Virus record (IMG/VR): IMGVR_UViG_3300009184_000039
Coordinates: 1 to 64,000 of that record
DNA length: 64,000 nucleotides
Reading direction: 5' to 3' (one strand)
Source: a virus
This document shows, one piece after another, positions 4,846-62,835 of the stretch (its first letter is position 1; every line of letters starts with the position of its first letter). The notes below the pieces were generated by a model. That model saw only the letters and a list, made by a program, of their open reading frames with translations, searched no databases and had not been told where the DNA came from. The translations under genes were made by a program, and so were the position numbers.

Positions 4846-4864
4846 TAGCAAGAGGACAACCACT

Positions 4865-5778: not shown

Positions 5779-5780
5779 CA

Positions 5781-8096: not shown

Positions 8097-8290
8097 ACAG
8101 TTTAGAAAAGATCTGGGCCCGGGCCACCGGGCACTTGATGGGCGAGAGTGACCATGATCGCCCGGATGTACCTATACTGACCTTGCGAGAAGCCCGAATA
8201 GCACTATTTTTCAAAACGTTCTGGGTTATAATACATGTTATAACTTGTGGCTTTATCATAGCCAACACAATTAGACACTGGAACAATTAA
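8093..8290 (+). CDS. Small membrane protein between nrdA and nrdB
   Basis: 65 residues. The C-terminal part (about 37-60, FFKTFWVIIHVITCGFIIAN) is one transmembrane helix and the N-terminal half is soluble and charged. The ATG overlaps the nrdA stop (ATGA), so it is translated with nrdA. Function unknown. Its position suggests a link to nucleotide metabolism or simply co-expression. Confidence 0.7.
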   Translation: MNSLEKIWARATGHLMGESDHDRPDVPILTLREARIALFFKTFWVIIHVITCGFIIANTIRHWNN

Positions 8291-8295
8291 ATTCA

Positions 8296-9441
8296 ATGAA
8301 TTCAAAAACTTTTTGTTTAGCCCCTTGGGTTAGTACCTGTGTATTACCAACTGGAAAATTGGCACCCTGTTGCCAATGGACAGGAATGTCGGACATTAAT
8401 TTTCAAGAGTTTGATTCTTGGATAAATTCAGATTATCTCCAAAATATTAGAAAACGCATGTATGAAGGAGAACAAATTTCAGAGTGTAACAAGTGCTGGA
8501 AGGATGAAAGTGTTGGCAAACAAAGTTTAAGAGAGATTTATAATCGTGAGTTTTCTAAATTTTCGATTCGAGACAGTATTAATAAAACTTGGCAAGTAAA
8601 AGACAGTGTATGTGCCTTGGATCTTAAACTTGGAAATTTGTGCAATTTAAAATGTGTCATGTGTAACCCATTTTCAAGTAGCCAATTATTAACTGAATAC
8701 AAAACACATTCAGAACAATTTGACAATTTAAAAACTTATTCAATAGAGTTCTTAGAGGAAGATTTTTCATGGCCGCTGACGGAGGCTTTTAAGATGTTTC
8801 TAAGTAAGTTTCAAAATCAAATTAAATGGATTAAATTTACTGGCGGCGAACCAACAATCATTCCGCATGTGTTGGATGTACTAGATAATATAAATTGTGC
8901 CTCAGAGACAACAGTAAGTTTTACTACCAATGCTACAAAACTTGACCAAAAATTTATCGACAAAATTAAAAAATTTAATACAGTCTGGTTAAGTGTCAGT
9001 CTTGAAGGAATAGAAGAACATAACGATCAGATTAGATTTTTATCCAACTGGAATGAAGTAGAAAAAAATATCTTGAGAGTTTGTAATTTACCAAACGTAT
9101 ATTTTAATATTAATTATGTTTTGCAATGCTTTAGTGTGTCTACTTTTATACCTCTATTAAAGTGGTGTGAAAAACATCAAATTACACTATGTATTCTAAA
9201 ATTATCAAACCCGGACTATTTGAGTATAGACGGAGTAGACATAAATATCATAAACAAATTTGCAGATAGTCTTAGCGAATTAAATTTAACTAAAAATCAA
9301 AATGTAATATTGCAAGTGCTGGGCCACCTGCAAACACACAAATACAGTAAAGACCTTGCCCGACAACGGCATGAATATTTACAACTAATAGATTCTATTA
9401 GATCAACAAAAACAGATCAAATTATTCAGGAAATGACATGA
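8296..9441 (+). CDS. Radical SAM protein with SPASM/twitch-like cysteines
   Basis: 381 residues. The radical SAM cluster motif is C116-x3-C120-x2-C123 (NLCNLKCVMCNP), followed by FTGGEPTI (the GGE motif) and SVSLEG. Extra cysteines at the N-terminus (CLAPWVSTC, LAPCCQW and a CNKCW pair) resemble the auxiliary-cluster part of 'twitch' or SPASM proteins. Such enzymes use S-adenosylmethionine radicals to modify peptides or small molecules; the substrate here is unknown. The gene is strikingly AT-rich compared with nrdA and nrdB on either side, so it looks inserted. It overlaps nrdB by 4 bases. Confidence 0.85.
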   Translation: MNSKTFCLAPWVSTCVLPTGKLAPCCQWTGMSDINFQEFDSWINSDYLQNIRKRMYEGEQISECNKCWKDESVGKQSLREIYNREFSKFSIRDSINKTWQVKDSVCALDLKLGNLCNLKCVMCNPFSSSQLLTEYKTHSEQFDNLKTYSIEFLEEDFSWPLTEAFKMFLSKFQNQIKWIKFTGGEPTIIPHVLDVLDNINCASETTVSFTTNATKLDQKFIDKIKKFNTVWLSVSLEGIEEHNDQIRFLSNWNEVEKNILRVCNLPNVYFNINYVLQCFSVSTFIPLLKWCEKHQITLCILKLSNPDYLSIDGVDINIINKFADSLSELNLTKNQNVILQVLGHLQTHKYSKDLARQRHEYLQLIDSIRSTKTDQIIQEMT

Positions 9442-10538
9442 GTCAAGCACAATACAATTTAAAAACAAAAACAGATTATCTCAGTCGCAAGATGTTCTTG
9501 GATCCAGCAGGGCCTGTGACCGTACAACGATTTGAAGAAGTCAAATATAACAAACTGGTCAAGTACGAACAAGAAGCACGTGGTTTCTTTTGGGTGCCAG
9601 AGGAAATATCTTTGACCAAAGACGCACAAGACTTCAAAGACGCCAGTGACACTGTCAAGCATATCTTTACATCAAACTTGCTACGTCAAACAGCACTAGA
9701 CAGTTTGCAAGGTCGTGGTCCTAGTCAAATTTTTACGCCGGTAGTGTCAATCCCAGAACTAGAAGCACTAGTATACAACTGGACATTCTTTGAAACAAAC
9801 ATTCACTCACGCAGTTATAGTCATATCATTCGCAACATCTACAACGTGCCCAAGGATGTGTTCAACACAATTCATGATACACAAGAGATTGTGGACATGG
9901 CATCAAGTGTTGGCAACTACTACGACCGACTACACATGATCAACTGTCGCAAAGAACTGTTAGAAGAATTTCCTGAGCGTGAACATATCAAAGCCGTCTG
10001 GTTGGCACTCAATGCCAGTTATGCGTTAGAAGCATTCCGCTTTATGGTATCATTTGCCACAAGCCTAGCCATGGTAGAGAACAAGATCTTTATCGGCAAC
10101 GGCAACATTATTCAGTTGATCCTGCAAGATGAAATGCTACACAAAGAGTGGACAGCATGGTTGATCAATCAAGTGATCAAAGAGGATGCACGTTTTGCCG
10201 CTGTCAAAACTGAATGTGAAGCAGAAGTATACCAAATGTATCTAGATGTTATTCGTGAAGAAAAAGCCTGGGCTGACTACTTGTTTAACAAAGGTCCGGT
10301 GATTGGTCTTAATGCAAACATTCTTAAAGACTTTGTGGACTTCACAGCATTCAATGCACTCAAAGAAATTGGCATCAAGTACACAGAAGATCATCCACGT
10401 TCAACACCCATTCCTTGGTTTACCAAGCACGTGGACACCAGCAAGAAACAAACTGCACTGCAAGAGAACGAATCAACTAACTATGTTATTGGAGTCATGA
10501 GTGACAGCATTGATTACGACGAATTACCAGAATTATAA
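9438..10538 (+). CDS. nrdB: Ribonucleotide reductase class Ia, small (radical) subunit
   Basis: 366 residues. The di-iron and tyrosyl-radical region reads ETNIHSRSYSHI (Glu119, His123, Tyr127), with further ligands in ALEAFRF and DEMLHKEW. The C-terminus DYDELPEL is the acidic tail that docks on NrdA. It generates the tyrosyl radical needed by NrdA. Compared with E. coli there appears to be one extra residue between the Glu ligand and the His ligand. The start overlaps the stop of the radical SAM gene. Confidence 0.96.
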   Translation: MSQAQYNLKTKTDYLSRKMFLDPAGPVTVQRFEEVKYNKLVKYEQEARGFFWVPEEISLTKDAQDFKDASDTVKHIFTSNLLRQTALDSLQGRGPSQIFTPVVSIPELEALVYNWTFFETNIHSRSYSHIIRNIYNVPKDVFNTIHDTQEIVDMASSVGNYYDRLHMINCRKELLEEFPEREHIKAVWLALNASYALEAFRFMVSFATSLAMVENKIFIGNGNIIQLILQDEMLHKEWTAWLINQVIKEDARFAAVKTECEAEVYQMYLDVIREEKAWADYLFNKGPVIGLNANILKDFVDFTAFNALKEIGIKYTEDHPRSTPIPWFTKHVDTSKKQTALQENESTNYVIGVMSDSIDYDELPEL

Positions 10539-10552
10539 CAAGGAAAATAAAA

Positions 10553-10783
10553 ATGAAAGCAATTGTATGGTCAAAAGACCAGTGCCCTTATTGCACTCAA
10601 GCAAAGGCATTGTTAGAAAGCCGAGGTATCGAGTATGAAGAACGCAATATCAATAACGGTTGGGACAAAGAAGATTTACTGGCGGCAGTACCAACGGCTA
10701 GAACATTACCACAAATTTTCCTAGATGAAGAATTAGTGGGCGGATTCACAGAACTTAGACAAAGGTTAACACATGCTACTTGA
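10553..10783 (+). CDS. grx: Glutaredoxin, electron donor for ribonucleotide reductase
   Basis: 76 residues. The active site is CPYC at residues 11-14, followed by the TLPQIFLDE cis-proline segment and VGGFTEL glutathione-binding turn. AAGGA precedes the ATG. Placed right after nrdB, it most likely reduces the NrdA C-terminal cysteines using host glutathione. It overlaps the next gene by 11 bases. Confidence 0.95.
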   Translation: MKAIVWSKDQCPYCTQAKALLESRGIEYEERNINNGWDKEDLLAAVPTARTLPQIFLDEELVGGFTELRQRLTHAT

Positions 10784-11069
10784 AATTGACAAAGGACTCG
10801 CCGAAGGCGACGTGGTTACACTCAAACTCACATCAGGTGAGGAGATTGTGGCACGATTGGACAAAGAGACTGACACACACTACAGACTAACCAAGCCCAT
10901 GGTGATTGCCATGGGACCGAACGGTCCAGGGTTGTTGCCTTACTTGTTTACAGTGAGTCCGGACAAGACTATTGGCCTATCCAAAGGTACCGTGACTGTG
11001 GCTGTGACTTCGGACAAACAGTTTGCAAGTCAATACATGCAGAGCACAACCAACATACAAATGGTTTAA
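10773..11069 (+). CDS. Small beta-rich protein, Sm-like fold possible
   Basis: 98 residues, no membrane segment. Residues 10-60 alternate in a strand pattern around LKLTSGEEIVARL, which resembles the first strands of Sm/Hfq-like or SH3-like barrels. This is a weak resemblance, not a firm family call. It is translated from within the glutaredoxin gene, so it belongs to the nrd operon. Confidence 0.65.
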   Translation: MLLEIDKGLAEGDVVTLKLTSGEEIVARLDKETDTHYRLTKPMVIAMGPNGPGLLPYLFTVSPDKTIGLSKGTVTVAVTSDKQFASQYMQSTTNIQMV

Positions 11070-11088
11070 CGCACCAGATTTCTACTTC

Positions 11089-11096
11089 CATAAATA
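11089..11096 (+). promoter_or_regulatory. Late promoter-like element CATAAATA
   Basis: The element ends four bases before the next ATG. If transcription starts about six bases after its last A, as at T4 late promoters, the message would begin at the start codon. Confidence 0.45.
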
Positions 11097-11100
11097 ATCA

Positions 11101-11316
11101 ATGGGACATCGCTTTGTAATCATGCACAACGAACAGTTGTCGGAATACACCGAGTACGAGCAAATTCCCAGTGAATTTGATCACGTGATAGAGTTTGCTC
11201 CTGAAATCCCGCCAGGACCGCACACTGATCAAGATCATGAAGAAATTGATCAGTGGCAGACTAAATTTGAAAGATTAATGGAAATAGAATATGCCAGCAG
11301 CCGCAAGAAAGAGTGA
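11101..11316 (+). CDS. Small acidic phage protein
   Basis: 71 residues, rich in Glu, Asp and His, no membrane segment. No family recognised. It starts directly behind a CATAAATA element without a clear ribosome site, and its 3' end overlaps the PAAR gene by 26 bases, so it belongs with the tail-tip block. Confidence 0.65.
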   Translation: MGHRFVIMHNEQLSEYTEYEQIPSEFDHVIEFAPEIPPGPHTDQDHEEIDQWQTKFERLMEIEYASSRKKE

Positions 11317-11674
11317 TAAGTGTGTGCCACATTGCTCGCCTTTTACCGTGGCAAAGGGCAGTGCCGATGTGTTTACTGATGGCAAAGCGGCATCTCGCGT
11401 GGGCGACACAGTTACCTCTCACAAAACACCCGGTGGCGGTGCGGCAGCGGGACAAGCAGCCAGCATAGGAGCAAAGTTTGCTCCACCTCCTTACAGTTTT
11501 GCTTTGATGGCCGTGGGCTTTGTGATGAAAAAATGTACTGACCATGCGCCGGCAATTGCCACAGGTTCCAGTAGTGTTTTTATAAATGGCAAGCCAGCCG
11601 CCTTTGTTGGTAGTAGTATAACTGGATGTACCAGTGTGTCTGCTGGCAGTCAAACTGTGTTTATTGGTAGATAA
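11291..11674 (+). CDS. PAAR-domain tail spike tip protein
   Basis: 127 residues. The repeated PAAR pattern is clear: MPAAARKSD at the start, SADVFTDGKAASRVGD, then GSSSVFINGKPAAFVGS and AGSQTVFIGR at the end. PAAR proteins form the sharp cone at the end of contractile tail spikes and type VI secretion spikes, binding metal near the tip. Cysteines and histidines (KCVPHCSPF) could be ligands. This supports a contractile-tailed (myovirus) phage. Confidence 0.92.
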   Translation: MPAAARKSDKCVPHCSPFTVAKGSADVFTDGKAASRVGDTVTSHKTPGGGAAAGQAASIGAKFAPPPYSFALMAVGFVMKKCTDHAPAIATGSSSVFINGKPAAFVGSSITGCTSVSAGSQTVFIGR

Positions 11675-11675
11675 C

Positions 11676-12965
11676 GTGCCTTCAATTTTGACCCCATTAC
11701 AAATGATCGCGGGTGCCACACTCAGCAACAATCAAGGTGTGGCCATTGCTACCAATTTTACCAACGCCATCTCTTCTTATACCGGCACCACGTTACTTGC
11801 ACCATTGTTTGTGGCCTTGGGCAACAGCGCCAATGCCAACTTGAGCGTGACTACTCTCAACAGTCTTGAGGTCATGGCCGCCAACAGTTGTCCTGCATTG
11901 GCAGACAGCACACCTGTATCATATGCCAGCAACATAGGCAACATACTAGGTCCACGAATACAAACAACATTCACCACAAACTATACCACATTCAGCGGAA
12001 ATATTAACGGTAATGTATTGACTGTGACCAGTACGCCGGCACCAAATCTCATATACGTGGGATTACAAATAGGTGCTGTGGGGACCAGTGCCAACACTTT
12101 TATCACAGCCGACATCAGCGGTGGTGGCGGCGCAGGCGATTATGAAATAACTCCTGACCAAGATGTTCCTGATACCACAATAGCCGCCAATCCATCATAT
12201 GCCTCTTATGGCAATAGTATTGCAGGATTTACTGGAGTCATAACTGACATTGGTAATACCTATCTTGGTCAAGGCAATACTACAGTTTTTGCACAGGTGT
12301 TTTCAGCCGCACAAGGTTACATAAATCAAAACAATGATTTTATCAACACTGCCTACAACAGTCAAACCTATCTAGGCAGTACGTTTACTTCCATGAACAG
12401 TTTGATAACTGGTAACTTGACCGATGTCAACCTGGCCTTGCCTTCTTTTGGTAGTGATCTAGCAAGACTTGGATATTTGATTGATCTAGCCAACCTGGGC
12501 AACTTTGGATTACCTAGTACTGTGTTCCGGCAGTTGGCCACAGTGACCAACCTAACTCCCAGAATCACCATAGCACTCAAACAGGTGGGATTCACTACCA
12601 TACAAATTGAACGCATTACTGACCCTGACGCCACACTGACTGATACTGAAGAAGCCAAACTATATCGAGCCATGTTGTTGGTAACTGATGTGGCACTACA
12701 ACAGGTATGTGACATTCTCAGAATCACTTTGCCAGTGGCAGGTGTGAACACAACTCAACCACAGAATCCTGGACTGACCTCCATGGCCGACTTGTTGAAT
12801 CCTGTAAAAATCTTTCCTACCAGTTATGCCAGCCTCACAGTGAGAACTTACAATCAAAATACCACCAGTGAGTTGCGAGCCATCTATCTAGATGCAACTG
12901 GTAATGTCAACAGCAATTTGTTACAGTACCTGCCAAGGTATGTATTAACGGTGGTGCCAGCATGA
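11676..12965 (+). CDS. Probable tail or baseplate protein
   Basis: 429 residues from a GTG one base after the PAAR stop; a longer frame inside the PAAR gene is less likely. The protein is Ala/Thr/Asn/Ser-rich with no signal peptide, typical of virion proteins. Position directly behind PAAR and before a similar-looking gene suggests a tail-tip or baseplate component. No named family recognised. Confidence 0.7.
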   Translation: MPSILTPLQMIAGATLSNNQGVAIATNFTNAISSYTGTTLLAPLFVALGNSANANLSVTTLNSLEVMAANSCPALADSTPVSYASNIGNILGPRIQTTFTTNYTTFSGNINGNVLTVTSTPAPNLIYVGLQIGAVGTSANTFITADISGGGGAGDYEITPDQDVPDTTIAANPSYASYGNSIAGFTGVITDIGNTYLGQGNTTVFAQVFSAAQGYINQNNDFINTAYNSQTYLGSTFTSMNSLITGNLTDVNLALPSFGSDLARLGYLIDLANLGNFGLPSTVFRQLATVTNLTPRITIALKQVGFTTIQIERITDPDATLTDTEEAKLYRAMLLVTDVALQQVCDILRITLPVAGVNTTQPQNPGLTSMADLLNPVKIFPTSYASLTVRTYNQNTTSELRAIYLDATGNVNSNLLQYLPRYVLTVVPA

Positions 12966-13909
12966 TTACCTATGAACGATTGAGCAAAATTATACCTGCT
13001 GACCAAGCCTTGGCCTGCAAGGCTGTAAGTGTGAGCCTGCAACAAATAAAAAATGTCAGCACACTGTCATCGCCGCAGTTGGCTGTGGCCTTTGTGGCCA
13101 CTGTGACCACCAAGGATCTTGATCAAATCAATGCACTCACAGTGGCAGTACCAGCCAACGTGGCTGCCTACTATACTGACACCTACGCCACAGGCACCGG
13201 CACAGGTAACACCTTGGTACTGACAGACTTGCTGGGTGCCGCTGTGGGTATAACCTATATAGATCAATTGAACAATGTGGTGACCACACTGAACTCAGTT
13301 GGTAACGTGGGCGGCTTATCTAATCTAACAACCATTTACACCAGAATGGAAAACACAGTAAACGGTGTTTATGGCAATGCTGTGTCGGGTCCGGTTACCA
13401 TCCCTGCAGGTTATGCCGCGGGTACCTATGCCAATGCAGATGTGGCATTTAGTACAGCACTGATTCCCAATGCTGTGGTTGAAATTGGCAATGTTGTCAC
13501 AGCATACCCAACCGAAACCACATCAATGAATACAGAGTTTGATACCATGGCACAAAAGGTTCTAACTGAAAGCAACAACTTGACCTTGGCCACTATAAAC
13601 ATAGCCGAACTAACCACTACTGATCGTGGTCCGGTCATGAGTTTTGTTGAAAGCCTGCCCACATATGGCGTCAACCGAGAGCAAAATGGGCCCACCTGGT
13701 TCCTGGAGCAAGTGGCAGATTTAACCACACTGGGCGGGCAAGCAATTGTGGGCTGTTTGCGTGAGGGGCAAAATCTTGTGATTCTTAATAATGCGGGAAT
13801 TGGGGTAGATACCAATATCCCCAGCCAGCCCAGTTCGCCCAATCCGGTTGCAAATCTTATCCCAGCCACGTATACTGAAGCACAAGCAGCCAATTTAGTG
13901 GTAAAATAA
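12962..13909 (+). CDS. Probable tail or baseplate protein
   Basis: 315 residues, overlapping the previous gene by 4 bases. Composition resembles its neighbour (Ala, Thr, Val, Asn-rich, few charges), and both contain repeated NLTT/TLNS-like segments. Residues around 205-260 are richer in Gly, Pro and Trp. A virion role is inferred from context. Confidence 0.68.
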   Translation: MITYERLSKIIPADQALACKAVSVSLQQIKNVSTLSSPQLAVAFVATVTTKDLDQINALTVAVPANVAAYYTDTYATGTGTGNTLVLTDLLGAAVGITYIDQLNNVVTTLNSVGNVGGLSNLTTIYTRMENTVNGVYGNAVSGPVTIPAGYAAGTYANADVAFSTALIPNAVVEIGNVVTAYPTETTSMNTEFDTMAQKVLTESNNLTLATINIAELTTTDRGPVMSFVESLPTYGVNREQNGPTWFLEQVADLTTLGGQAIVGCLREGQNLVILNNAGIGVDTNIPSQPSSPNPVANLIPATYTEAQAANLVVK

Positions 13910-13930
13910 ACATCTAATACGTGTTTCTAC

Positions 13931-13962
13931 TAAATATTATTCTGTGTTTATAACTGAACACA
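13931..13962 (+). promoter_or_regulatory. Late-type promoter followed by a 5' stem-loop
   Basis: TAAATA is followed, exactly where a T4-type start would lie, by TGTGTT-8-AACACA (6-base arms). AAAAGGA then precedes the outer-membrane protein gene. The same order (promoter, hairpin at the transcript start) recurs at six other places in the window. Confidence 0.45.
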
Positions 13963-13985
13963 ATCTTTTTAAAAGGAAAAACTAA

Positions 13986-14525
13986 ATGAAGAAAATCTTC
14001 GCAATCTTGGCTTTGGCCATCACAGGTACTGCATTTGCAGCCGACAGTTTCACTGTCGAAGGTCAGCACATCAACAACGCAGGTGCTGCCGCTCAACAAC
14101 AATATGTTTTGGGTGTAAAGAAAGAGTTCAACGGCTTCGCTGGTGACTTGGCAGTGTCTAATGCACAAACTGAAGGTACCAACGCTTTGAGCACACGCCT
14201 TGAAGCCGGTGCTACAGTACCCGGTCCAGTTGGATTGTATGCTCGTGCCGCAATTGGTCAAAAGTATAGCAACACCACAGACTTCTCATACTACTCAGTT
14301 GAGCCAGGCATTGCCGCTCCAATTGGTTATGGGTTGACTGCTAAGTTTGGATATCGTTTCCGTAGTGCTTTTGATGGCTCACAGAACAATGACCAAACAC
14401 AAACAGCACGTTACTCATTGGCTTATGCTTTGAGTAAAGACGATACTGTTGCTGTCAAGTATGACCGTGTCAAAGGCGACAGCAATCAAAAGGTTGTTAG
14501 TGTAGCATACACACGTGGTTTCTAA
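13986..14525 (+). CDS. Outer-membrane beta-barrel protein
   Basis: 179 residues. Residues 1-19 form a clean signal peptide (MKKIFAILALAITGTAFA, cleaved before AD). The mature part alternates polar and hydrophobic residues in strands of about ten, and the chain ends in aromatic Phe (YTRGF), the usual signal recognised by the BAM machinery. A small eight-stranded OmpA/OmpW-like or porin-like barrel is likely. In a phage this could alter host permeability or mask receptors against superinfection; both are inferences. It is followed by a strong terminator. Confidence 0.8.
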   Translation: MKKIFAILALAITGTAFAADSFTVEGQHINNAGAAAQQQYVLGVKKEFNGFAGDLAVSNAQTEGTNALSTRLEAGATVPGPVGLYARAAIGQKYSNTTDFSYYSVEPGIAAPIGYGLTAKFGYRFRSAFDGSQNNDQTQTARYSLAYALSKDDTVAVKYDRVKGDSNQKVVSVAYTRGF

Positions 14526-14554
14526 AAAGTAACACTTTTTATTACCCCGAAAAG

Positions 14555-14572
14555 GTAATACTCAAGTACTAC
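14555..14572 (+). repeat. Recurring short hairpin (GTARTACT-type), copy 1
   Basis: GTAATACT-CA-AGTACTAC forms 8-base arms with one G-T wobble and a 2-base turn. Close relatives occur at 41969, 50455, 53075 and 62842, always between genes and always just before a sigma70-type promoter. Confidence 0.6.
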
Positions 14573-14602
14573 AAAACCCTGCCCAGTGCAGGGTTTTCTT
14601 TT
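14573..14602 (+). terminator. Rho-independent terminator
   Basis: AAAACCCTGC, loop CCAGT, GCAGGGTTTT followed by CTTTT. It ends the outer-membrane protein transcript just upstream of the next promoter. Confidence 0.85.
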
Positions 14603-14605
14603 GAT

Positions 14606-14634
14606 TTGACCAAATATTCAAGATCGGTTATAAT
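14606..14634 (+). promoter_or_regulatory. Sigma70-type promoter, predicted leaderless
   Basis: TTGACC, 17 bases, TATAAT, then only six bases before the next ATG. The start site would fall on the A of the start codon, so the message would lack a leader. Confidence 0.75.
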
Positions 14635-14640
14635 AATAAC

Positions 14641-14874
14641 ATGAAGTTAGAAATCAATGAAATACTACAGTGGGCCGGAGCGGTGTTTATCATCGCGGGA
14701 CACAGTCTTAATGCTGTAGGCCCTAGTGCTTACCCCTATAACATACTTGCCTTCTTTTTAGGCACAATTTTGTTTATGGCCTGGACCATACGTGTTGCAA
14801 ATAAGCCACAGTTGATGGTGAACATTGTGGCATTGTGCATTGGAGCATCGGGACTGGTAAAAGCATTTGGTTGA
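14641..14874 (+). CDS. Small three-helix membrane protein
   Basis: 77 residues with three hydrophobic segments (about 8-25, 32-50, 56-76). The YPYNILAFFLG and PQLMVNIVALCIG pattern faintly recalls half-transporters of the PQ-loop/SemiSWEET or PnuC type, but no diagnostic motif is seen. No ribosome site lies upstream; the promoter's -10 box is six bases away. Transcript probably starts at the ATG. Confidence 0.7.
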   Translation: MKLEINEILQWAGAVFIIAGHSLNAVGPSAYPYNILAFFLGTILFMAWTIRVANKPQLMVNIVALCIGASGLVKAFG

Positions 14875-14899
14875 CTCAAAATTGTCTATTTGCTATAAT
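14871..14899 (+). promoter_or_regulatory. Sigma70-type promoter
   Basis: TTGACT, 17 bases, TATAAT. The -35 box overlaps the stop codon of the upstream gene. A leader of about 25 bases with AAAGGA leads into the 46-residue gene. Confidence 0.8.
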
Positions 14900-14929
14900 A
14901 TACACATAAAGAAACAAAAGGAACTCAAA

Positions 14930-15070
14930 ATGACCGTAGCAGACTTTATTGAAATTCTCCGCACCATGCCCGCAGACGCTCGTGTGGTTGCACATGACAG
15001 CGACTGGGGTTACACCACTCCTCTTGTGGAAGTGGATGACGACGGCGAAGTTGTAATCTCCGCAGGTTGA
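14930..15070 (+). CDS. 46-residue acidic small protein
   Basis: Begins at the ATG after AAAAGGAACTC. The product (MTVADFIEILRTMPADARVV...) has an amphipathic helix followed by strands and an acidic VDDDGEVV turn. Similar short proteins are common in large phages, function unknown. The reading frame extends upstream of this ATG, but only this start has a ribosome site and lies after the promoter. Confidence 0.75.
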   Translation: MTVADFIEILRTMPADARVVAHDSDWGYTTPLVEVDDDGEVVISAG

Positions 15071-15095
15071 CCCAAAATTACCATTTTGTTATAAT
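15067..15095 (+). promoter_or_regulatory. Sigma70-type promoter
   Basis: TTGACC, 17 bases, TATAAT. The -35 box overlaps the preceding stop codon. AAAAAGGAGCC precedes the next ATG. Confidence 0.8.
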
Positions 15096-15125
15096 ACTTG
15101 TATAGAAACTAAAAAGGAGCCTAAG

Positions 15126-15386
15126 ATGACAGAACAACAAAATCGCGAAATTAAAATGTACGGCACCACCGAATCCGCATTGCGTGAAAGTATTGAGCGT
15201 TCAATGACTTTCAAGGTCTCTGGGCCTGCAATGATTGTGGCTGGCATGTTGAGCGACGTGCAAGAAATGATGGCGTATGGCCCTTATGACAGCGACACAC
15301 TTGCTGTGATTCAAGAAGACCAGCGTCAACAACTCAATCGTGCCAAGTGGGTTTTATTTGAATACATGAGCGAGGAAAGAGTATGA
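15126..15386 (+). CDS. Unknown small early-type protein
   Basis: 86 residues, soluble and helical (ALRESIERSMTFKV, then DQRQQLNRAKWVLFEYM). Strong AAGGAGCC ribosome site behind its own promoter. The last bases overlap the next gene's ATG. No family recognised. Confidence 0.72.
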   Translation: MTEQQNREIKMYGTTESALRESIERSMTFKVSGPAMIVAGMLSDVQEMMAYGPYDSDTLAVIQEDQRQQLNRAKWVLFEYMSEERV

Positions 15387-15580
15387 GCAAAATGAGTGAC
15401 ATTAGCACAATGGTAGATGCCATTTGTGAAGACCGTGGCTATGACAGCCTTAAAGAATTTGACTACAGTGACGTTGAGTATCTTGCACAAGAACTTGGCA
15501 TGTCGGTGGTGGCTGTGTGTGCAATCGTGCGCATTGAGGTTCCAGAAAACTGTAGTCCTTTTGCAACAGTCAACAGTTGA
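15383..15580 (+). CDS. Unknown small protein
   Basis: 65 residues, acidic and helical, with a segment (YLAQELGMSVVAVCAIVRI) that could form a helix-turn-helix-like pair, though this is weak. It overlaps the upstream gene by 4 bases and so shares its transcript. Confidence 0.68.
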   Translation: MSKMSDISTMVDAICEDRGYDSLKEFDYSDVEYLAQELGMSVVAVCAIVRIEVPENCSPFATVNS

Positions 15581-21406: not shown

Positions 21407-22978
21407 ATGATATTTGGTTTCAGCATCCTGGCCACAGCAATCTTACTCAGTTGTGTGGCCGCTTATTACTCTGTGGCAGGTCTTACCGCCATCTTCTCCG
21501 CGGCAACCATCCCTGTGATCATCATGGGTGGCAGCCTCGAACTTGGCAAGATTGTGGCCACTGTTTGGTTGCACAACAATTGGCGACGTGCTGGATTCCT
21601 GTTCAAAGCATATCTAGTGCCTGCGGTGGCATTCCTAATGTTACTGACATCAATGGGAATTTTTGGCTATCTCTCCAAGGCCCATTCAGATCAAAGTCTA
21701 GTTTCAGGCGATGCAGTAGCAAAAGTAGCAATCTATGATGAAAAGATCAAAATATCTCGTGACAATATTGAAGCCGACCGCAAGGCACTTAAACAGATGG
21801 ATGAGGCTGTGGACCAAGTTATGGGCCGATCAGCAGATGAAAAAGGTGCCGACAAAGCAGTTGCAATACGAAGAGGCCAGCAACGAGAACGGGCTAGGAT
21901 ACTTGCTGACATCGAAACCGAACAGAAAAAGATTACTAATCTTAATGAAGAGCGGGCACCACTAGCGGCCGAGTTCCGCAAGGTTGAAAGCGAAGTTGGG
22001 CCTATCAAATACATTGCCGCACTTGTATATGGAGACAATCCTGACTCTAATGTGCTAGAGCGAGCAGTACGTTTAGTAATCATTATGATTGTGTTGGTAT
22101 TTGACCCACTGGCCTTGACTTTGATCCTGGCAGCCAACAAACAATTTCAATGGGCCAGAGAAGGCACCGGAGGCTTTGTGCATGACGAGCCCCGGTACGA
22201 GCCTGATAATGGTCCGCTAACTGAAAATCAAATTGAACAACTAAAAGAATCAGTGCCAGAGCCGCCTGATGATCCTATACCTTGTTACAAGTGTGGTACC
22301 TCGTTAGTTGACGCTCCGGGTATTGGACTGTTCTGCCCCAACAAAGAATGTGACGTTATAGATAATGTCAAAGGTGAGGAACCTGTTGAATTTGAATCAA
22401 TTGAAATTGAATACAAGTTTTTAGACGAACATCATGAACCTGATCTCCATGTATACGATGATGAACGCTTGGTATCAAAATTTGACAAGATGCAAAATTT
22501 AGAACGACCAGGAGACTACATAACACCACCTGACGAGACTGATGCAGAAAAAGAAGCCAAGCGGCTGTGGAAAGCCGAACACCCTGATGGAACTGTAAAA
22601 GAACAAAGAAGATTGCACGAAGTAGGCGCCATAGACACATTACCGTGGCAGGGCTATATCAATCTTCAAGCAGACAATGATGGTAGTATTTCAAGTACCG
22701 GTCGATTGCTGGGCTTTGGTATCAAGTTCCCAGAGAATCCAGCCAAAGGTGATTCATTTATTAGGGTAGATCAAATGCCCAGTGCCCTGTACAAATACAA
22801 TGGCACCAAGTGGATTGAGGTTGACAAAGGGCTCAGTGACCAGTATGCTTATGACACGGCCTATATTGATCATTTGATTGAAAAACTCACTACCGGTGAG
22901 TATGATCCTGAATTATTAAACGAAGCAGAAAGAGAACAAGTGGCACAACGCTTACAAACCAACACAAAAGGTGCATGA
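21407..22978 (+). CDS. Membrane protein with coiled coil and zinc ribbon
   Basis: 523 residues. Three hydrophobic helices open the protein (about 1-25, 28-45, 66-86), followed by a long charged coiled coil (about 98-190) and a fourth helix (VIIMIVLVFDPLALTLILA). A zinc-ribbon-like pair follows (CYKCG and CPNKEC, near 296-316), then an acidic region and a small C-terminal domain. Similar 'coil-containing' membrane proteins occur in marine T4-like phages, function unknown. A GTAAATA element ends seven bases before the ATG, so the transcript could be nearly leaderless. The stop overlaps the clpX start. Confidence 0.75.
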   Translation: MIFGFSILATAILLSCVAAYYSVAGLTAIFSAATIPVIIMGGSLELGKIVATVWLHNNWRRAGFLFKAYLVPAVAFLMLLTSMGIFGYLSKAHSDQSLVSGDAVAKVAIYDEKIKISRDNIEADRKALKQMDEAVDQVMGRSADEKGADKAVAIRRGQQRERARILADIETEQKKITNLNEERAPLAAEFRKVESEVGPIKYIAALVYGDNPDSNVLERAVRLVIIMIVLVFDPLALTLILAANKQFQWAREGTGGFVHDEPRYEPDNGPLTENQIEQLKESVPEPPDDPIPCYKCGTSLVDAPGIGLFCPNKECDVIDNVKGEEPVEFESIEIEYKFLDEHHEPDLHVYDDERLVSKFDKMQNLERPGDYITPPDETDAEKEAKRLWKAEHPDGTVKEQRRLHEVGAIDTLPWQGYINLQADNDGSISSTGRLLGFGIKFPENPAKGDSFIRVDQMPSALYKYNGTKWIEVDKGLSDQYAYDTAYIDHLIEKLTTGEYDPELLNEAEREQVAQRLQTNTKGA

Positions 22979-24186
22979 TGGCATCAGATTTACACAACAC
23001 CTGCAGTTTCTGCGGCAAGCACAAAGACTCGGTAAAAAAACTCATAGTAGGCGAAAAAGTAGGCATTTGTAATGAGTGCGTGGATTTTTGTCAAGGCTTG
23101 TTAATTGACGAAACCCCTCAAGACAGCACAACTGCTCCAGTAACCCCTAGAAAACTAGATCCTGTTGTACTCAAAGAATATTTAGATCAGTACGTGATTG
23201 GACAAGACTCGGCCAAGATCATGTTGAGTGTGGCCATTGTGAATCACTACAAACGTATCAACAAGACCACAAACGAACCTGAACTAGAAAAAGCCAATGT
23301 GCTTATGTTGGGGCCTACAGGTTCGGGCAAGACCTTGTTGGCCAAGAGTGTGGCACGTTATCTTGATGTACCATTTGCTATTGCTGATGCCACTAGTATT
23401 ACAGAAGCAGGCTATGTGGGCGATGATGTGGAAAGTCTTATCACAAGATTGTATACTGCGGCTGATGGTGACATAAACAGAACACAACGTGGCATTATTT
23501 TTGTGGACGAGATTGACAAAATTGCTCGCAAAGGTGAGAGTGCCAGTATCACTAGAGATGTGTCAGGTGAAGGAGTACAACAGGCCTTGCTCAAGATGGT
23601 AGAAGGTACTGTGTGTCGTATACCAGCAGGTGGCGGCCGGAAACACCCATCAGGGGACATGATTGAAATCAACACACGCAACATCTTGTTTATTGCAGGT
23701 GGTGCATTTGTGGGCCTGGATTCAATTGTTAAAAATCGTGTGCAAGGTACCAGTATCGGCTTTGGTGCCAAGGTAGAAAGCGATGCAGACACTAACCTTG
23801 CACTTACCACACCTGACGACTTGGTCAAGTATGGAATGATTCCAGAATTTGTGGGACGTTTTCCTAACTGGGTTGGTCTACAAGAACTTTCTAAATCAGA
23901 TCTAGTACACATTCTTACTGGTGTAAAAAACAACTTTGTTGATCAATATAAATGGTTGTTTGCTGAAGATGGTGTAGAGTTACAGTTTACAGACCCAGCA
24001 TTGGATACTATTGCTGAACGAACTCTACTTAGCAAAACAGGTGCTCGAGGACTGCACAGCGAACTAGAACGTGTGCTGATGCCACACATGTACAACCTCA
24101 AACGCTACCCTGGCATGGGAATAAAGTGCGTGGAAATTGGCCCTGCTTTGGTAAATATTCCTATAGCACTAGAGGGCACAAATTGA
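22975..24186 (+). CDS. clpX: ClpX ATPase, unfoldase of the ClpXP protease
   Basis: 403 residues, near full length. The N-terminal zinc domain has Cys10, Cys13, Cys32 and Cys35. Walker A is GPTGSGKT (about 112-119), the pore loop is AGYVGDD, and Walker B is IIFVDEID. Near residue 260 the IGF loop (TSIGFGA) that docks into ClpP is kept, so this protein should be able to work with ClpP, either the phage copy at 48353 or the host's. ClpX recognises, unfolds and feeds substrates into ClpP. The ATG overlaps the upstream stop, and bS21 starts on its own stop. Confidence 0.96.
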
Positions 24187-43952: not shown

Positions 43953-44537
43953 ATGACCATGCCCACACAAGAAACTATTCAAACGGAACAAAATCATTCA
44001 CAGTCCCTGGCCGACAATGGCATGTATGTTTTCATGGGTGACGTGGATGACGAAAACATCAAGCCAGTAGTGGAATGGGTTTTGTACGAAAACTATGTGA
44101 CCAAGAAAAAGAAAAAGGAACTGTTACTAATGATCTGCTCCGGTGGAGGAGACATGGGCGCGGCCTTTGCCCTGATTGACGTCATGATGAGTTCGCAGAT
44201 TCCAATTAAAACTGTGGGTCTTGGTACTATTGCATCAGCAGGCTTGCTGATCTTTATATCCGGCACTCATGGACGCAGAATACTCACACCCAACACCAGT
44301 ATTCTAAGTCATCAGTTTTCGTGGTACAATGAAGGCAAAGTGCATGAGTTGTTTGCCACAATGAAAGAGTTTGAACTCACACAGGCTCGAATGTTGGCAC
44401 ACTATGAATTGTGTACTGGTCTGGGTAGAGAAGAGATACGCACGAACCTGTTGCCAGCACAGGATGTTTGGCTGAGTGCATCGGAAGCCCTGGCTCTGGG
44501 CGTGTGCGATGATATCAGCGTTTTAAATAGGTCTTAA
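43953..44537 (+). CDS. Divergent ClpP-like serine protease
   Basis: 194 residues. The ClpP fold markers are MICSGGGDMGAAFALIDVM, then the nucleophile Ser95 in TIASAG, His120 in ILSHQF and Asp171 in LPAQDVWLSASEAL, so the catalytic triad is complete. It is much more divergent than the canonical clpP at 48353; the N-terminal loops that gate the pore and touch ClpX are different. It could mix with ClpP rings, cut its own substrates or act in head maturation. The start follows a late promoter and hairpin and lacks a ribosome site; ATG at 43959 is another option. Confidence 0.83.
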   Translation: MTMPTQETIQTEQNHSQSLADNGMYVFMGDVDDENIKPVVEWVLYENYVTKKKKKELLLMICSGGGDMGAAFALIDVMMSSQIPIKTVGLGTIASAGLLIFISGTHGRRILTPNTSILSHQFSWYNEGKVHELFATMKEFELTQARMLAHYELCTGLGREEIRTNLLPAQDVWLSASEALALGVCDDISVLNRS

Positions 44538-47379: not shown

Positions 47380-48365
47380 TAATCAAAACATTTGATCAAG
47401 GATGGGGACAACAATATCCTCTCAAACAATATGAACAAGAGATTGTTGCCAGTCTCATAATACCATTTGCAGAGAGCAGCCAACGAATAGTTATGATCAA
47501 CAGCGTTTGGTACACTAACGAAATGCACGAACAAGTAATCTCCTGGTTACGCAATAACACCTGGGATCAAATAGTACTTGTGGCTATGTTGGATGCCGCT
47601 ATTCCCTATCCTGATCGATACGCAGAGTTTGGCCGACCGGTAACAGGTATTGGTTACTACCCAGGGGCAGGACAAGTGGACTTTTGTGCTTTGTTTGTTG
47701 ATCATTTTTTACACGCACCTGATCAACCACTACTGCTAGAGGCTGGCACAATTGACACAGCCTACATGTGCTTGAATCGAAAACCGCACTGGCACAGAAG
47801 ACGACTGTTCAATAGACTGGATACCTTGGGAATTGTGAGCAAGGGTATTGTGAGCATGGGTGGCGAGGGTCAGGCTGTGGTGACTTTAATACAGGATAGA
47901 GAACATGATACTCTTGCACCCAATGCCACACGAAATCACTATGGTGTTCCCAACGACATTGTGAGTCTTGGACATCTAGGAAACTGGCGCAGACATTTGG
48001 TCAACGTGGTTACTGAAACGTTTTATGATATTAATCAAACCGGTTTTGTGAGTGAAAAAATCTACAAACCCATTGTGGGTTGCAGACCTTTTTTGATTTA
48101 TGATCCTGATGGCGGCACACGTTGGTTACATGATCGTGGATTTGAAACCTACACACAGGACTTTCAAGATATTTCAGATCTGGATCTTGCAGAACCACAT
48201 AACCTTCCTGAATTTCTAAAGGTACTATGTGGGCAAACTCCTGCATACTGGCAAAAGAAATTTGTTGACTTACAGGAAAAAATCCTATACAATAAGGATC
48301 ATTTTGCTGATTATGTTAGTCAGCAACAATCTATAGTTAAACAAGGAATATCATGCCCCATTTAG
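47376..48365 (+). CDS. Glycosyltransferase-like protein, SEK-motif family, copy 4
   Basis: 329 residues. The motif is [19 protein letters not shown] followed by GFETYTQDF. Tandem arrangement with copy 3 suggests duplication followed by divergence or two steps of one glycan pathway. Its end overlaps clpP by 13 bases, joining sugar-transfer and protease genes in one transcript. Confidence 0.62.
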
Positions 48366-48946
48366 TACCTATTGTGCTTGAACAAACCGCCAAAGGCGAA
48401 CGCAGTTATGACATCTACAGTCGCCTGTTAAAAGACCGTGTGATCATGCTGGACACAGAAGTTAGTGAACACACGGCCAGTTTGTTGGTAGCACAGATGT
48501 TGTTCTTGGAATCAGAAAATCCTGACAAAGATATCTCCCTGTACATTAACTCACCAGGCGGAAGTGTCACAGCAGGCATGGCAATTTATGACACCATGCA
48601 GTTTATCCGGTGTGATGTGCAGACCATTGTGATGGGGCAAGCCTGCTCCATGGGATCACTATTGGCCATGGCCGGTGCCGCAGGCAAGCGCATGATCCTG
48701 CCCAATGCTCGACACATGATTCATCAACCCTCGGGTGGCGCACATGGACAAGCCACAGACATTCAAATTCAAGCAAGAGAAATCCAAAAAATGAAAGAGT
48801 ATCTAACTAACATCTATGTCCGGCACAATACCGCAGGAAAAAGTTACCAAGAACTAAGCGCAGATATGGAACGTGATTTCTTTATGTCAGCACAAGAGGC
48901 TGTGGACTATGGCCTAGCCGACAAGATCATTAACAAAAGGATATAA
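48353..48946 (+). CDS. clpP: ClpP protease, canonical
   Basis: 197 residues. Catalytic Ser99 (GQACSMGS), His124 ([10 protein letters not shown]) and Asp175 (MERDFFMSA) are all present, as are the N-terminal VPIVLEQT stretch and [14 protein letters not shown]. It should form the usual double heptamer. With the phage ClpX it makes a complete ClpXP machine. The start lies inside the preceding gene, and a TTG-started gene follows two bases after its stop. Confidence 0.96.
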
Positions 48947-53766: not shown

Positions 53767-53888
53767 TGAGTGAGCCAGTTTGGATTATTAGTTGGACACA
53801 GAATTATCCCAACTGGGAACCTGTTGAATTACCTATTACCAACTTTGCACAAGCCCGCGAAGTGTTAGCAAGGATCATGTCCTTATGA
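53766..53888 (+). CDS. 40-residue small protein
   Basis: TGATG overlap with the upstream gene and ATGA overlap with the downstream one. The product (starts MSEPVWIISWTQNYPNW) has a strand then a helix (FAQAREVLARIM). Overlap at both ends supports translation. Unknown. Confidence 0.62.
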   Translation: MSEPVWIISWTQNYPNWEPVELPITNFAQAREVLARIMSL

Positions 53889-54235
53889 AATGGTTTGCAG
53901 AAACAACTGTATTTGCAGGCGCACTCTCGCCCAATCATGTTTACCTGCTGGACGACAGCAAGAGTAAAATGTTTGCCTACAAGCCTTTTGGGCAGGGCAA
54001 GATTCAAATTTTTAAAAACCCCATACGCATCGACGTTCGCGGACGCAAGTTCCAAGTCAATGACGTGCAATTTAAAACTTCAGTAGAACCCGAAGTCCCT
54101 GAAGGACGTGTGATTGAAGTTAAGGGTAGCAAAGGTGACGTATACAAAGTAATCGAACTCAATGGCAACTATTCTTGTACTTGCTCAGGATTTAAGTTCC
54201 GCGGCGACTGTAAACACATCAAGAGCGTGGCATGA
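53885..54235 (+). CDS. SWIM zinc-finger protein
   Basis: 116 residues. At the C-terminus Cys98-x-Cys100-x8-Cys109-x-His111 (YSCTCSGFKFRGDCKH) is a full SWIM motif, used by DNA- or protein-binding zinc domains. The first 90 residues are beta-rich. It may bind nucleic acid or regulate neighbours. Both ends overlap adjacent genes by 4 bases. Confidence 0.8.
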   Translation: MKWFAETTVFAGALSPNHVYLLDDSKSKMFAYKPFGQGKIQIFKNPIRIDVRGRKFQVNDVQFKTSVEPEVPEGRVIEVKGSKGDVYKVIELNGNYSCTCSGFKFRGDCKHIKSVA

Positions 54236-54477
54236 AGTTTCCTTTTAAGAATTCGCCAGAGTGGTTTACCAACTACGTGACTGAAACTTATGTGGACGAG
54301 TTCCACCAAAAAGTAAAAGATGTCAACTGGGACCAAACAGATCGCATTGCATTGTTAGATGCGGCTGTGGAGTTCTTTACCGAAAAAGGTTTTAGGGTTT
54401 ACTGCTACAATAGAGAACTTTGGTTTGACTTGGACGAGACCCAAGAAACCACAATGCTGGCCCTACAGTGGTCCTAA
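54232..54477 (+). CDS. Unknown small protein, distant relative of the LRW tandem family
   Basis: 81 residues. The C-terminus ELWFDLDETQETTMLALQWS resembles the F-x-F-x4-DA-x2-F-x-LRW ending of the five tandem genes near 60000. The rest is helical. It may be a single ancestral-type copy. Stop faces the stop of the minus-strand acetyltransferase-like gene. Confidence 0.65.
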   Translation: MKFPFKNSPEWFTNYVTETYVDEFHQKVKDVNWDQTDRIALLDAAVEFFTEKGFRVYCYNRELWFDLDETQETTMLALQWS

Positions 54478-54478
54478 C

Positions 54479-54910
54479 TTACTTGTAAATGTAGTTGATG
54501 GTATCTGAATTTTCTCTATAGATACCTGCACCATTCTTCAAATGAAAGCGCCGAGCCATTTCTGTTTTAGGGCTTAGTGTAACATAAGTGTCAATGCTAG
54601 GAAACTCTTCCTTAATTGACTGTTGAGTCTTCACAATCAACTCACGCCCAGCCCCTGCTGTGTAACTCCAAATAGTGTAAAATACTGCGGTAGTAGCACT
54701 ACCCACCAACTCGGCCAGGTCGTCTACTGCGGCTGGAATGGCTTGCAAGAACTTAACACAGGTCACTGCTTGGGTTTGATCCCCATCCTTCAACATGTAG
54801 ATTCTGCTGTTCTCGTTTACCCGTTTGGTCATGGGAATTTCGGGACGTACAGGGTCATCCTTGATCAGGGTTTCTAAGTCTTCAGTAATGGTGGTAATGG
54901 TGTGTAACAT
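54479..54910 (-). CDS. GNAT acetyltransferase-like protein
   Basis: 143 residues. The segment AVFYTIWSYTAGAGRELIVK lies where the acetyl-CoA loop of GNAT enzymes is expected, and the end MARRFHLKNGAGIYRENS follows the usual last strand pattern. The classical R/Q-x-x-G-x-G/A loop is only partly matched (GAGRELI). An ATAAATA element lies about 30 bases upstream on the same strand. Substrate unknown. Confidence 0.6.
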   Translation of the reverse strand: MLHTITTITEDLETLIKDDPVRPEIPMTKRVNENSRIYMLKDGDQTQAVTCVKFLQAIPAAVDDLAELVGSATTAVFYTIWSYTAGAGRELIVKTQQSIKEEFPSIDTYVTLSPKTEMARRFHLKNGAGIYRENSDTINYIYK

Positions 54911-59916: not shown

Positions 59917-60096
59917 ATGACTACTATAACTGTTGAAGGTGCCGATCGAGCAATTGATGCGGGCATATGGCTTAATGAACAATGTATAGACTATCAAATT
60001 GATATGGAGCAAGTTTGGACTAAGACCGAGCCTCGATATCAATTTCAATTTTCTAACACTAAAGACGCAACACACTTTGCATTACGATGGCGATAA
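59917..60096 (+). CDS. LRW tandem family, copy 1
   Basis: 59 residues from the ATG just after the promoter. The C-terminal signature is YQFQFSNTKDATHFALRWR. The N-terminal part (EGADRAIDAGIWLNEQ) is helical. The next four genes end in the same pattern (F-x-F-x4-DA-x2-F-x-L-R/K-W) but differ before it. Confidence 0.68.
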   Translation: MTTITVEGADRAIDAGIWLNEQCIDYQIDMEQVWTKTEPRYQFQFSNTKDATHFALRWR

Positions 60097-60099
60097 GGT

Positions 60100-60327
60100 A
60101 TGTTCGAGCATGAACTACGCATAGAACATGCCAGTCCCGACGACGGCATACGTTGGAGCCATGAATTGCAATGGTCCGGATTGATTCAGGGTCAAGACTA
60201 TGTATGGCAGTACGTGCCGGCCTGGGATGACAACTTTGGATCACACACATCGCCTCGAGCCGTGGTGTTTGCATTTAGCAATCCTGCCATGGCCACATTT
60301 TACCAATTGAAATGGCAACACACTTGA
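60100..60327 (+). CDS. LRW tandem family, copy 2
   Basis: 75 residues. The ending is VVFAFSNPAMATFYQLKWQHT. Acidic and Trp-rich N-terminal part (IRWSHELQWSGLIQGQ). Starts three bases after copy 1 and overlaps copy 3 by a base. Confidence 0.68.
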   Translation: MFEHELRIEHASPDDGIRWSHELQWSGLIQGQDYVWQYVPAWDDNFGSHTSPRAVVFAFSNPAMATFYQLKWQHT

Positions 60328-60545
60328 TGAAACAACACATGTTACCTGAAACTGCTAGGATGTTTAGTCTGTGTGTGCATTGTGTGACTCCACGAAAAGA
60401 TGCATACGGGCCAGACATCATGCGTTGGCTCACTGAAAATATAGCAAAAACAGAAGCAGGGTTCAGGCCCTGGACTAGAACAGATCGAGAATTCAAATTC
60501 ATGCACGAGCGTGATGCTATAATGTTTGCACTCCGATGGTCATGA
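60327..60545 (+). CDS. LRW tandem family, copy 3
   Basis: 72 residues from the ATG that shares a base with the upstream TGA. The ending is EFKFMHERDAIMFALRWS. N-terminal part has a Cys pair (LCVHCVTP). Confidence 0.68.
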   Translation: MKQHMLPETARMFSLCVHCVTPRKDAYGPDIMRWLTENIAKTEAGFRPWTRTDREFKFMHERDAIMFALRWS

Positions 60546-60733
60546 CACATACAGTAAGAATACCCTGGCGAAAAGGCGACACCATCTCCAAGTGGGACGA
60601 AGTATGCATCTGGACCATTGAAGAATTTGGCCTGCCTGGCGAACGCTATACCACACACCCCACATCAGACTACATGGATTTTGTTTTCCAGCACAGCCGG
60701 GACGCTATATACTTCAAACTCCGATGGCTATAA
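60542..60733 (+). CDS. LRW tandem family, copy 4
   Basis: 63 residues. The ending is FVFQHSRDAIYFKLRWL; the N-terminus (TVRIPWRKGDTISKWDE) is basic and Trp-rich. ATGA overlap with copy 3 and a 10-base overlap with copy 5. Confidence 0.68.
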   Translation: MTHTVRIPWRKGDTISKWDEVCIWTIEEFGLPGERYTTHPTSDYMDFVFQHSRDAIYFKLRWL

Positions 60734-60960
60734 AAACTGCTGAAGACACAATCCGACTGGGTGACAGTTTCAATCATGCCTGTAGAATTCAAAAAAACTA
60801 TGGCGTGTTGGAAGAAATATTGGCCTGGTCAAAAGAGTCATTGACTGCAGAATGGCGATGGCAATTGGTCAGTGTGAGTTCAGACGTCCGCCCCGGAGAT
60901 TACATTTTCTACTTTGATAGCGAGCGTGACTACCTGGCATTTGTAATGAAATGGTTATAA
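60724..60960 (+). CDS. LRW tandem family, copy 5
   Basis: 78 residues. The ending is YIFYFDSERDYLAFVMKWL, the most changed version (Asp-Tyr for Asp-Ala). N-terminal helix IRLGDSFNHACRIQKN. Its last bases overlap a possible early start of the next gene. Confidence 0.66.
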   Translation: MAIKTAEDTIRLGDSFNHACRIQKNYGVLEEILAWSKESLTAEWRWQLVSVSSDVRPGDYIFYFDSERDYLAFVMKWL

Positions 60961-60968
60961 GTAAAATT

Positions 60969-61256
60969 ATGCGTACACCCCAAGAACGAGACAAGAAAAA
61001 TCTACGTATTCAACGTGACGAAAATGCTATTCGAAAGCAATCCAAGATTGCCCGAGCACATGGTATGGATGTAAAAGAGCCACACAAGTTCGCCAAGCAT
61101 CATGCCATGGATTGTGGACAACCAGGTTGTGTCTTGTGTGGCAACCCAAGAAAAACATTCAGCGAGTTGACCGCACAAGAAAAACGCCTGTTCCAAGATG
61201 CAGAACAGCCGCGTGACAAACATTCAAACGGCTTGCCCCGGAATCAAGATGATTGA
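60969..61256 (+). CDS. Small protein with Cys-rich GNPRK motif
   Basis: 95 residues from ATG (MRTPQERDKKNLR); a start six codons earlier overlaps copy 5. Basic first half, then KFAKHHAMDCGQPGCVLCGNPRKT: three cysteines and His residues that could bind zinc, followed by FSELTAQEKRLFQD. Similar small proteins occur in phages and bacteria without known function. Confidence 0.7.
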   Translation: MRTPQERDKKNLRIQRDENAIRKQSKIARAHGMDVKEPHKFAKHHAMDCGQPGCVLCGNPRKTFSELTAQEKRLFQDAEQPRDKHSNGLPRNQDD

Positions 61257-61945: not shown

Positions 61946-62281
61946 ATGAGTACAAGTACTTTTGTTGTGGTTTGGGATAATTTGGGTTTGGAATATGTGG
62001 GCAACGTCACCGAGGACGAACAACGCCGTGTGTGGGGCAAACTCAACGGCAAGCCTGTGCCAAGCCAACTGCCTAATGTGAATCATCTGTTGCTTCGTGC
62101 TAGATACAACAGCCAACGTCACTATGAAATCTATTTGGTCAACGCCACGGATGGAATAACTACAGACGACATACGTGCGATGTTTGAGGCATCACCACAA
62201 ACTGCCGCAGACACCATACGCACTCTTGGTCATTGCTACTACAGTGACCGAGTGAATAAAGATAAAATATTAATCACATGA
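61946..62281 (+). CDS. Unknown alpha/beta protein
   Basis: 111 residues from the ATG after TTGGAGAGTCGC; the longer frame overlaps the promoter. Strand-helix pattern (TFVVVWDNLGLEYVGNV, LLLRARYNSQRHYEIYLV, then DDIRAMFEASPQ). No family recognised. ATGA overlap with the next gene suggests they work together. Confidence 0.68.
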   Translation: MSTSTFVVVWDNLGLEYVGNVTEDEQRRVWGKLNGKPVPSQLPNVNHLLLRARYNSQRHYEIYLVNATDGITTDDIRAMFEASPQTAADTIRTLGHCYYSDRVNKDKILIT

Positions 62282-62835
62282 ACCAAAATATCATCGACGG
62301 CCTCAAAGCCTTTGACTGGCAAACCATTGTTGAATACGGCAACAGCCTTGACGATCTCAACAGCAGGCAATGGCGTTTTTTAAAAGGACTGGTGTGTGAA
62401 CTCATCACAGAAAAATGTAGCAATGGTAACCTTGTCTATGTTGGCCAAGACCACAAAGATTTTGACTGGCCCAGGCACAATATCTCAATCTCAGTTGAAT
62501 TAAAAAGTCAACTCAGTGCTAGAATGTACACCAAAAAAGGTCGGTTGAGAAAAAACTATCCCATCAAACTCAACAACAGTCACGGAACAAATGAAAAGAA
62601 AAAAATAGATGCCAAGGATGTGGCTGACATAATCATTGTGGTTCGTGATGATGGTGCGTTTATGATCGATCAAGCAACTGCAATCAAACATGCCAAACCA
62701 GCAGGTGATGGCTTTAATGTCACCGTCACCGGGGACGAAGTTATTGAGTTATCAGGTCTCGTTGTTCCAGACAAAGTATACACAACAAATCTCAAAGAAA
62801 AGATCATGACAGTGATCCGAGATTCTTTACCATAA
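62278..62835 (+). CDS. Possible PD-(D/E)XK nuclease
   Basis: 185 residues. DFDWPRHNISISVELKSQL contains a D...E-x-K pattern on a beta strand (Asp, then VELK), typical of restriction-type nuclease cores, and DVADIIIVVRDDGAFMID could be a later strand. The basic region KKGRLRKNYPIKLNN may contact DNA. The evidence is suggestive only. A host-DNA-cutting or anti-phage role is possible. Confidence 0.5.
   Translation: MNQNIIDGLKAFDWQTIVEYGNSLDDLNSRQWRFLKGLVCELITEKCSNGNLVYVGQDHKDFDWPRHNISISVELKSQLSARMYTKKGRLRKNYPIKLNNSHGTNEKKKIDAKDVADIIIVVRDDGAFMIDQATAIKHAKPAGDGFNVTVTGDEVIELSGLVVPDKVYTTNLKEKIMTVIRDSLP

Follow-up and report, generated by a model that had tools for sequence, protein, structure and literature searches.

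Five small tandem genes in a viral genome belong to an expanded phage protein family with a predicted one-domain fold

What is the role of a run of very short viral genes whose products end alike but begin differently? The question is raised by a locus at positions 59917-60960 of the window, that is, of the whole 64,000-nucleotide stretch analysed here (positions 1 to 64,000 of IMG/VR record IMGVR_UViG_3300009184_000039), which makes up most of a 74-kb virus record. The window also encodes ribonucleotide reductase and ClpX-like (22975-24186), ClpP-like (43953-44537 and 48353-48946), and IscU-like (2448-2885) proteins, all named by inspection, a set that we take to be jumbo-phage-like.

The array comprises five open reading frames (ORFs) on the plus strand, with a DUF2452 gene before them and, directly after copy 5, an unrelated phrog_4499 gene (60951-61256, plus strand). 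Copy 1 (59917-60096; 59 aa), the fastest evolving, carries the signature F-x-F-x4-DA-x2-F-x-LRW in its literal form (codons 60043-60090), as do copy 3 (60312-60545; 77 aa, with an alternative shorter start at the ATG at 60327; signature codons 60492-60539) and copy 4 (60536-60733; 65 aa, or 63 aa if started at ATG 60542; signature codons 60680-60727). Copy 2 (60100-60327; 75 aa) and copy 5 (60724-60960; 78 aa) end in the variants FAFSNPAMATFYQLKW (codons 60268-60315) and FYFDSERDYLAFVMKW (codons 60907-60954), so the identical ending that a preliminary description ascribed to all five holds for three of them. The same description called the five genes overlapping, which is true of every junction except the first: copies 1 and 2 are separated by a 3-base gap, copies 2 and 3 share 16 bases (60312-60327) within the codons K-W-Q-H-T-stop, copies 3 and 4 share 10 bases (ATGGTCATGA; 60536-60545) that encode R-W-S-stop of the former and M-V-M of the latter, and the end of copy 4 shares 10 bases with the start of copy 5 (ATGGCTATAA; 60724-60733). 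Copy 5 in turn overlaps the unrelated gene downstream by 10 bases (ATGGTTATAA; 60951-60960). Farther along, a 185-aa protein without a family match (62278-62835) looks nuclease-like by eye.

The five genes encode divergent versions of a single compact domain and form one homologous family, which bears out their initial description as small paralogues. A leave-out profile, built from 44 members from other genomes and containing no sequence from the window, was searched against the 462 window ORFs; the top five were exactly the array copies (E-values of 1e-10, 9e-10, 2e-8, 4e-6, and 7e-5), and the next ORF scored 0.1. A loose form of the signature occurs in six of the 462 ORFs, versus 0.37 expected from shuffles. 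From 2586 ORFs, the copy-4 family profile retrieved copies 1, 3, and 5 together with relatives of these, and hhalign matched it to the same three copies; the copy-2 subfamily, common to L071, L051, L005, L045, and G014, is strongly linked by hhalign to one L005 array member (E 1e-9). The C-terminal half is the best-conserved part of the five genes, as had been noted. Comparison of the window with a relative (L003) gave dN/dS values of 0.42, 0.12, 0.12, 0.14, and 0.05 for copies 1 to 5, indicative of purifying selection and thus of real coding genes.

A sixth relative had been proposed to end at position 54477. The ORF in question (54232-54477, plus strand; 81 aa, ending FDLDETQETTMLALQWS) is 90% conserved in L075 and is under purifying selection (dN/dS 0.07), but its membership in the family is borderline: the iterated profile gave an E-value of 0.017, with the best reversed decoy at 0.069, the ORF was not among the top of the leave-out search of the window, and hhalign gave no meaningful match to the family. 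It is thus a possible distant member. Its start overlaps the stop of a gene for a SWIM zinc-finger protein (53885-54235), and a small protein encoded nearby on the minus strand (54479-54910), possibly with an acetyltransferase-like fold, matches the malonyl-CoA decarboxylase C-terminal domain (E 2e-7).

Structure prediction for copies 4 and 5, from two independent alignments, returned the same fold rather than unrelated ones. AlphaFold models copy 4 as a b-a-b-b-a domain (36-sequence alignment; pLDDT 92.8), and the same order was obtained for copy 5 from 12 sequences of its own subfamily, where the confidence of the five models is middling (44 to 76, the best model having a pLDDT of 76). Both copies are predicted to adopt a fold that resembles the ferredoxin-like one but lacks its last strand (b-a-b-b-a versus b-a-b-b-a-b). 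The nearest PDB structures to both models are ferredoxin-like pieces, including ACT domains, with Z-scores of at most 7.6, a level of similarity that can mean merely a common arrangement; a sequence search of solved structures with family members found nothing convincing. In a viral structure library, many proteins from uncultured phages, all uncharacterised, matched the copy-4 model; an E below 0.001 was reached by four of these and by two matches of the copy-5 model.

These models bear on the suggestion that a shared docking tail is joined to variable N-termini. The first halves do differ in sequence, but in both modelled copies they contribute the first two strands and the first helix of a single predicted domain, which the signature completes as strand 3 and helix 2. 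The conserved C-terminus is therefore probably not a separate docking tail; the signature most likely serves the hydrophobic core of the domain. Nor does the tail appear indispensable, since one wide branch of the copy-4 orthologues ends in K-I-L-L-S-D-R-L instead of L-R-W and keeps the rest of the protein; the conserved neighbours of these genes include a presumably QueE-like and a presumably exonuclease-like one, so named by inspection. A tryptophan in helix 1 is aligned in all 50 members of a wide alignment, itself loose (13% mean identity).

Profile searches found the family in other phages, where it is heavily expanded and where homologous loci retain the signature. Profiles are needed to detect it: tblastn of single members against phages gave one weak match in Sinorhizobium phage Phosso and otherwise chance or self matches. 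From 2082 ORFs, an iterated profile collected 147 members at E < 0.01, the reversed decoys scoring 0.069 at best. Copy 4 belongs to the widespread FGLPGERY family, having 56 relatives, most with that motif, in viral contigs that reach 356 kb in length; in many freshwater contigs its orthologue is the sole member seen in the locus, and a genome scan with its profile added nothing beyond chance, namely two matches of 11 residues in Corynebacterium. L004-L011, L030, and L045 contain related arrays with about five to eight members, and a 344-kb freshwater contig (G014) has some twenty members in one 9-kb stretch. Within G014, the interval 4500-15500 (L076) has about twenty small genes in tandem, most of them overlapping, whose products end in x-F-x-L-R-W-A or similar; many of the genes that follow take their M-G-M start from those very bases.

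When whole records were searched, the wide profile matched 57 times in Phosso at E <= 0.1 (51 at E <= 0.01) and 23 times in G014, counts that are partly self-matches because the underlying alignment contains many members from both; it had up to six weak matches in Atu_ph07 and zero in RaK2, XacN1, SCTP-2, pT24, BcepSauron, phiKZ, T4, and 121Q. Copy number ranges from one to about 51 per record. The Phosso members (about fifty; L080, L081, L094, L095, and L099) are scattered as well as clustered and end in DAMLFKLRW or similar; those fetched form small clusters surrounded by genes for metabolism, tRNAs, and repair, one small cluster being next to a tail-fibre gene. Judged by position, two members appear to be common to Phosso and Atu_ph07, where they flank, in the same order, a peptidyl-tRNA hydrolase gene (L092 and L099), the Atu_ph07 gene being presumably such by inspection. 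Subfamilies 2, 4, and 5 recur in diverged phages, each with its own conserved first half, as expected for distinct lasting roles.

Taken together, the evidence supports a small domain whose fold has been maintained while its surface has diversified, and whose old subfamilies persist in different phages. We propose, with about even confidence, that the array is a piece of this one-domain family and that its copies act as partner-binding adaptors or inhibitors inside the infected cell. The family and fold are the nearly certain part of this explanation, and a function as soluble partner-binding modules in host takeover or counter-defence is our best guess. The genes would have spread by tandem duplication, and the array, with its stop-start overlaps, would be expressed as a single operon; what sets the surface of each copy of the minimal b-a-b-b-a domain apart would be its variable loops, helix 1, and strand 2. 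Each copy might then bind a different stable partner protein and block or redirect it, and the copies together would equip the phage with adaptors or inhibitors for taking over the host or countering its defences. The earlier idea of different targets retains some force, since expansion of the family elsewhere suits a set with different partners; the separate docking tail is not supported. Mixed isoelectric points (4.6 to 9.2 in window members) also argue for different partners. On the other hand, the orthologues are mostly conserved (dN/dS near 0.1), as would be expected of a stable cellular machine no less than of arms-race inhibitors.

The main rival to partner-binding adaptors or inhibitors is that the tandem copies assemble with one another into a hetero-oligomer, a tentative alternative to which we give a minority share of belief. 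Ferredoxin-like domains such as ACT and PII, both near in the PDB lists, are commonly oligomeric, and absence of the last strand leaves an open sheet edge that could pair with a neighbouring copy; the co-linear genes with their stop-start overlaps, which on the same tentative footing would give matched subunit amounts, and the strong purifying selection are likewise consistent with such a complex. A fixed assembly is harder to reconcile with the copy number, which varies some fiftyfold between records, with the Phosso members that stand alone or in scattered small groups, and with the solitary copy-4 orthologues of the freshwater contigs.

Binding of nucleic acid, for example phage or host RNA or tRNA, by an RRM- or KH-like alpha-beta sandwich appears improbable. 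KH and RRM pieces are present among the weak structural matches, and several Phosso members adjoin tRNA, tRNA-synthetase, or peptidyl-tRNA hydrolase genes, but such neighbours are common in a phage with as many tRNAs as Phosso; RNP-like or GXXG motifs were not noticed in the alignments by eye, and the isoelectric points, under 6 in 63 of the 147 members, argue against one shared nucleic-acid role. We think it rather less probable still that the proteins are small virion or whisker components: a study of the relative Atu_ph07 reports 131 virion proteins identified by mass spectrometry, about 102 of them without an assigned function (PMC6102473), which leaves room for such a role, whereas the mostly metabolic, tRNA, and repair setting of the Phosso members, one cluster by the tail fibre apart, weighs weakly against it.

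The gene junctions raise a separate matter. In the related arrays (L004-L011, L030, L045, and G014), the typical gene ends in the codons TTG AGG TGG NNA TGA, in the setting TTGAGGTGGNNATGA, with GAGGTG directly before the ATG inside the stop overlap. The motif arginine is encoded by AGG in 21 of 31 cases, versus 20 of 213 other arginines in the same genes (odds ratio 20; Fisher p 4e-12, a value that treats related genes as independent and is overstated by their shared descent), and in 11 of 13 cases in G014 alone. Shine-Dalgarno-like sites precede 25% of the long ORFs of these phages, compared with 6% of random positions. Judged by their bases, the L-R-W codons of these arrays look like the ribosome-binding site of the next gene, from which its translation would start. 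The double role does not apply to the window array, which uses CGA or AAA followed by TGG, with the next gene's start codon lying in these codons, and which has no Shine-Dalgarno site at the starts of copies 3-5. The protein motif also stands on its own, because the tryptophan is kept where no gene overlaps, both in the copy-5 family (L063, L065, L014, and L071) and in Phosso members with CGC codons. That the C-terminal similarity is mainly a coding by-product, the bases of R-W-x-stop holding the start or ribosome-binding site of the next gene, is therefore mostly refuted and very improbable, despite the ATGG and GAGGTGG arrangements at most junctions and the AGG bias, the more so as similarity spans about 60 residues of the fold, well beyond the last three.

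What is unusual is that a conserved protein motif should be coupled to the ribosome-binding site of the gene that follows, which would be a compact way to grow arrays while keeping expression. It is conceivable, although we would not wager on it, that some jumbo phages carry an expandable toolbox of dozens of copies of one minimal alpha-beta domain in which the conserved C-terminal codons couple translation of each copy to that of the next. If so, a new tandem copy would be expressed at once and be free to take a new target, and the family could be seen as the phage counterpart of the repeat-adaptor expansions in giant viruses.

The family of small soluble phage proteins is apparently previously undescribed. 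Pfam, PHROG, NCBIfam, and PADLOC gave no convincing model match for the members tested; for the array proteins, Pfam returned zero matches of any kind at E up to 10, the ACT domain family included, and in longer Phosso proteins carrying the domain at their C-terminus it found no partner domain. In an incomplete coverage of the literature, no paper was found that describes the family or names Phosso, and the main text of the Atu_ph07 and AP-J-162 papers does not mention paralogous families. One profile unites tens of unrelated-looking hypothetical proteins; the family could make up about 7% of the annotated features of Phosso (about 51 of 735), an isolated 469-kb phage, could explain many of the ORFans that uncultured jumbo phages from freshwater carry, and can be tested in a culturable Sinorhizobium phage.

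Among known proteins, the closest are uncharacterised proteins of Phosso (XYS97803.1, XYS97177.1, and XYS97294.1), annotated merely as hypothetical, which have the same domain profile and the tryptophan in helix 1 and share ends such as DAMLFKLRW with the family; they differ in that the four L-R-W members checked show no R-W/ATG overlap and in that their arginine codons are mostly CGC. The ACT domain of Bacillus anthracis TyrA (PDB 5v0s) has a like order and arrangement of strands and helices and aligns with both models over 55-60 residues at Z 6.7-6.8, a level common for unrelated small sandwiches; it differs in having no sequence similarity to the family, and the family models are without its last strand. 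A lineage-specific expansion of about 35 zinc ribbons has been described in Bacillus phage G (PMC7824862). The domain there is another one, the wide profile finding a single marginal match in that phage (E 0.029), but the pattern is similar: a jumbo phage in which one tiny domain is present many times over.
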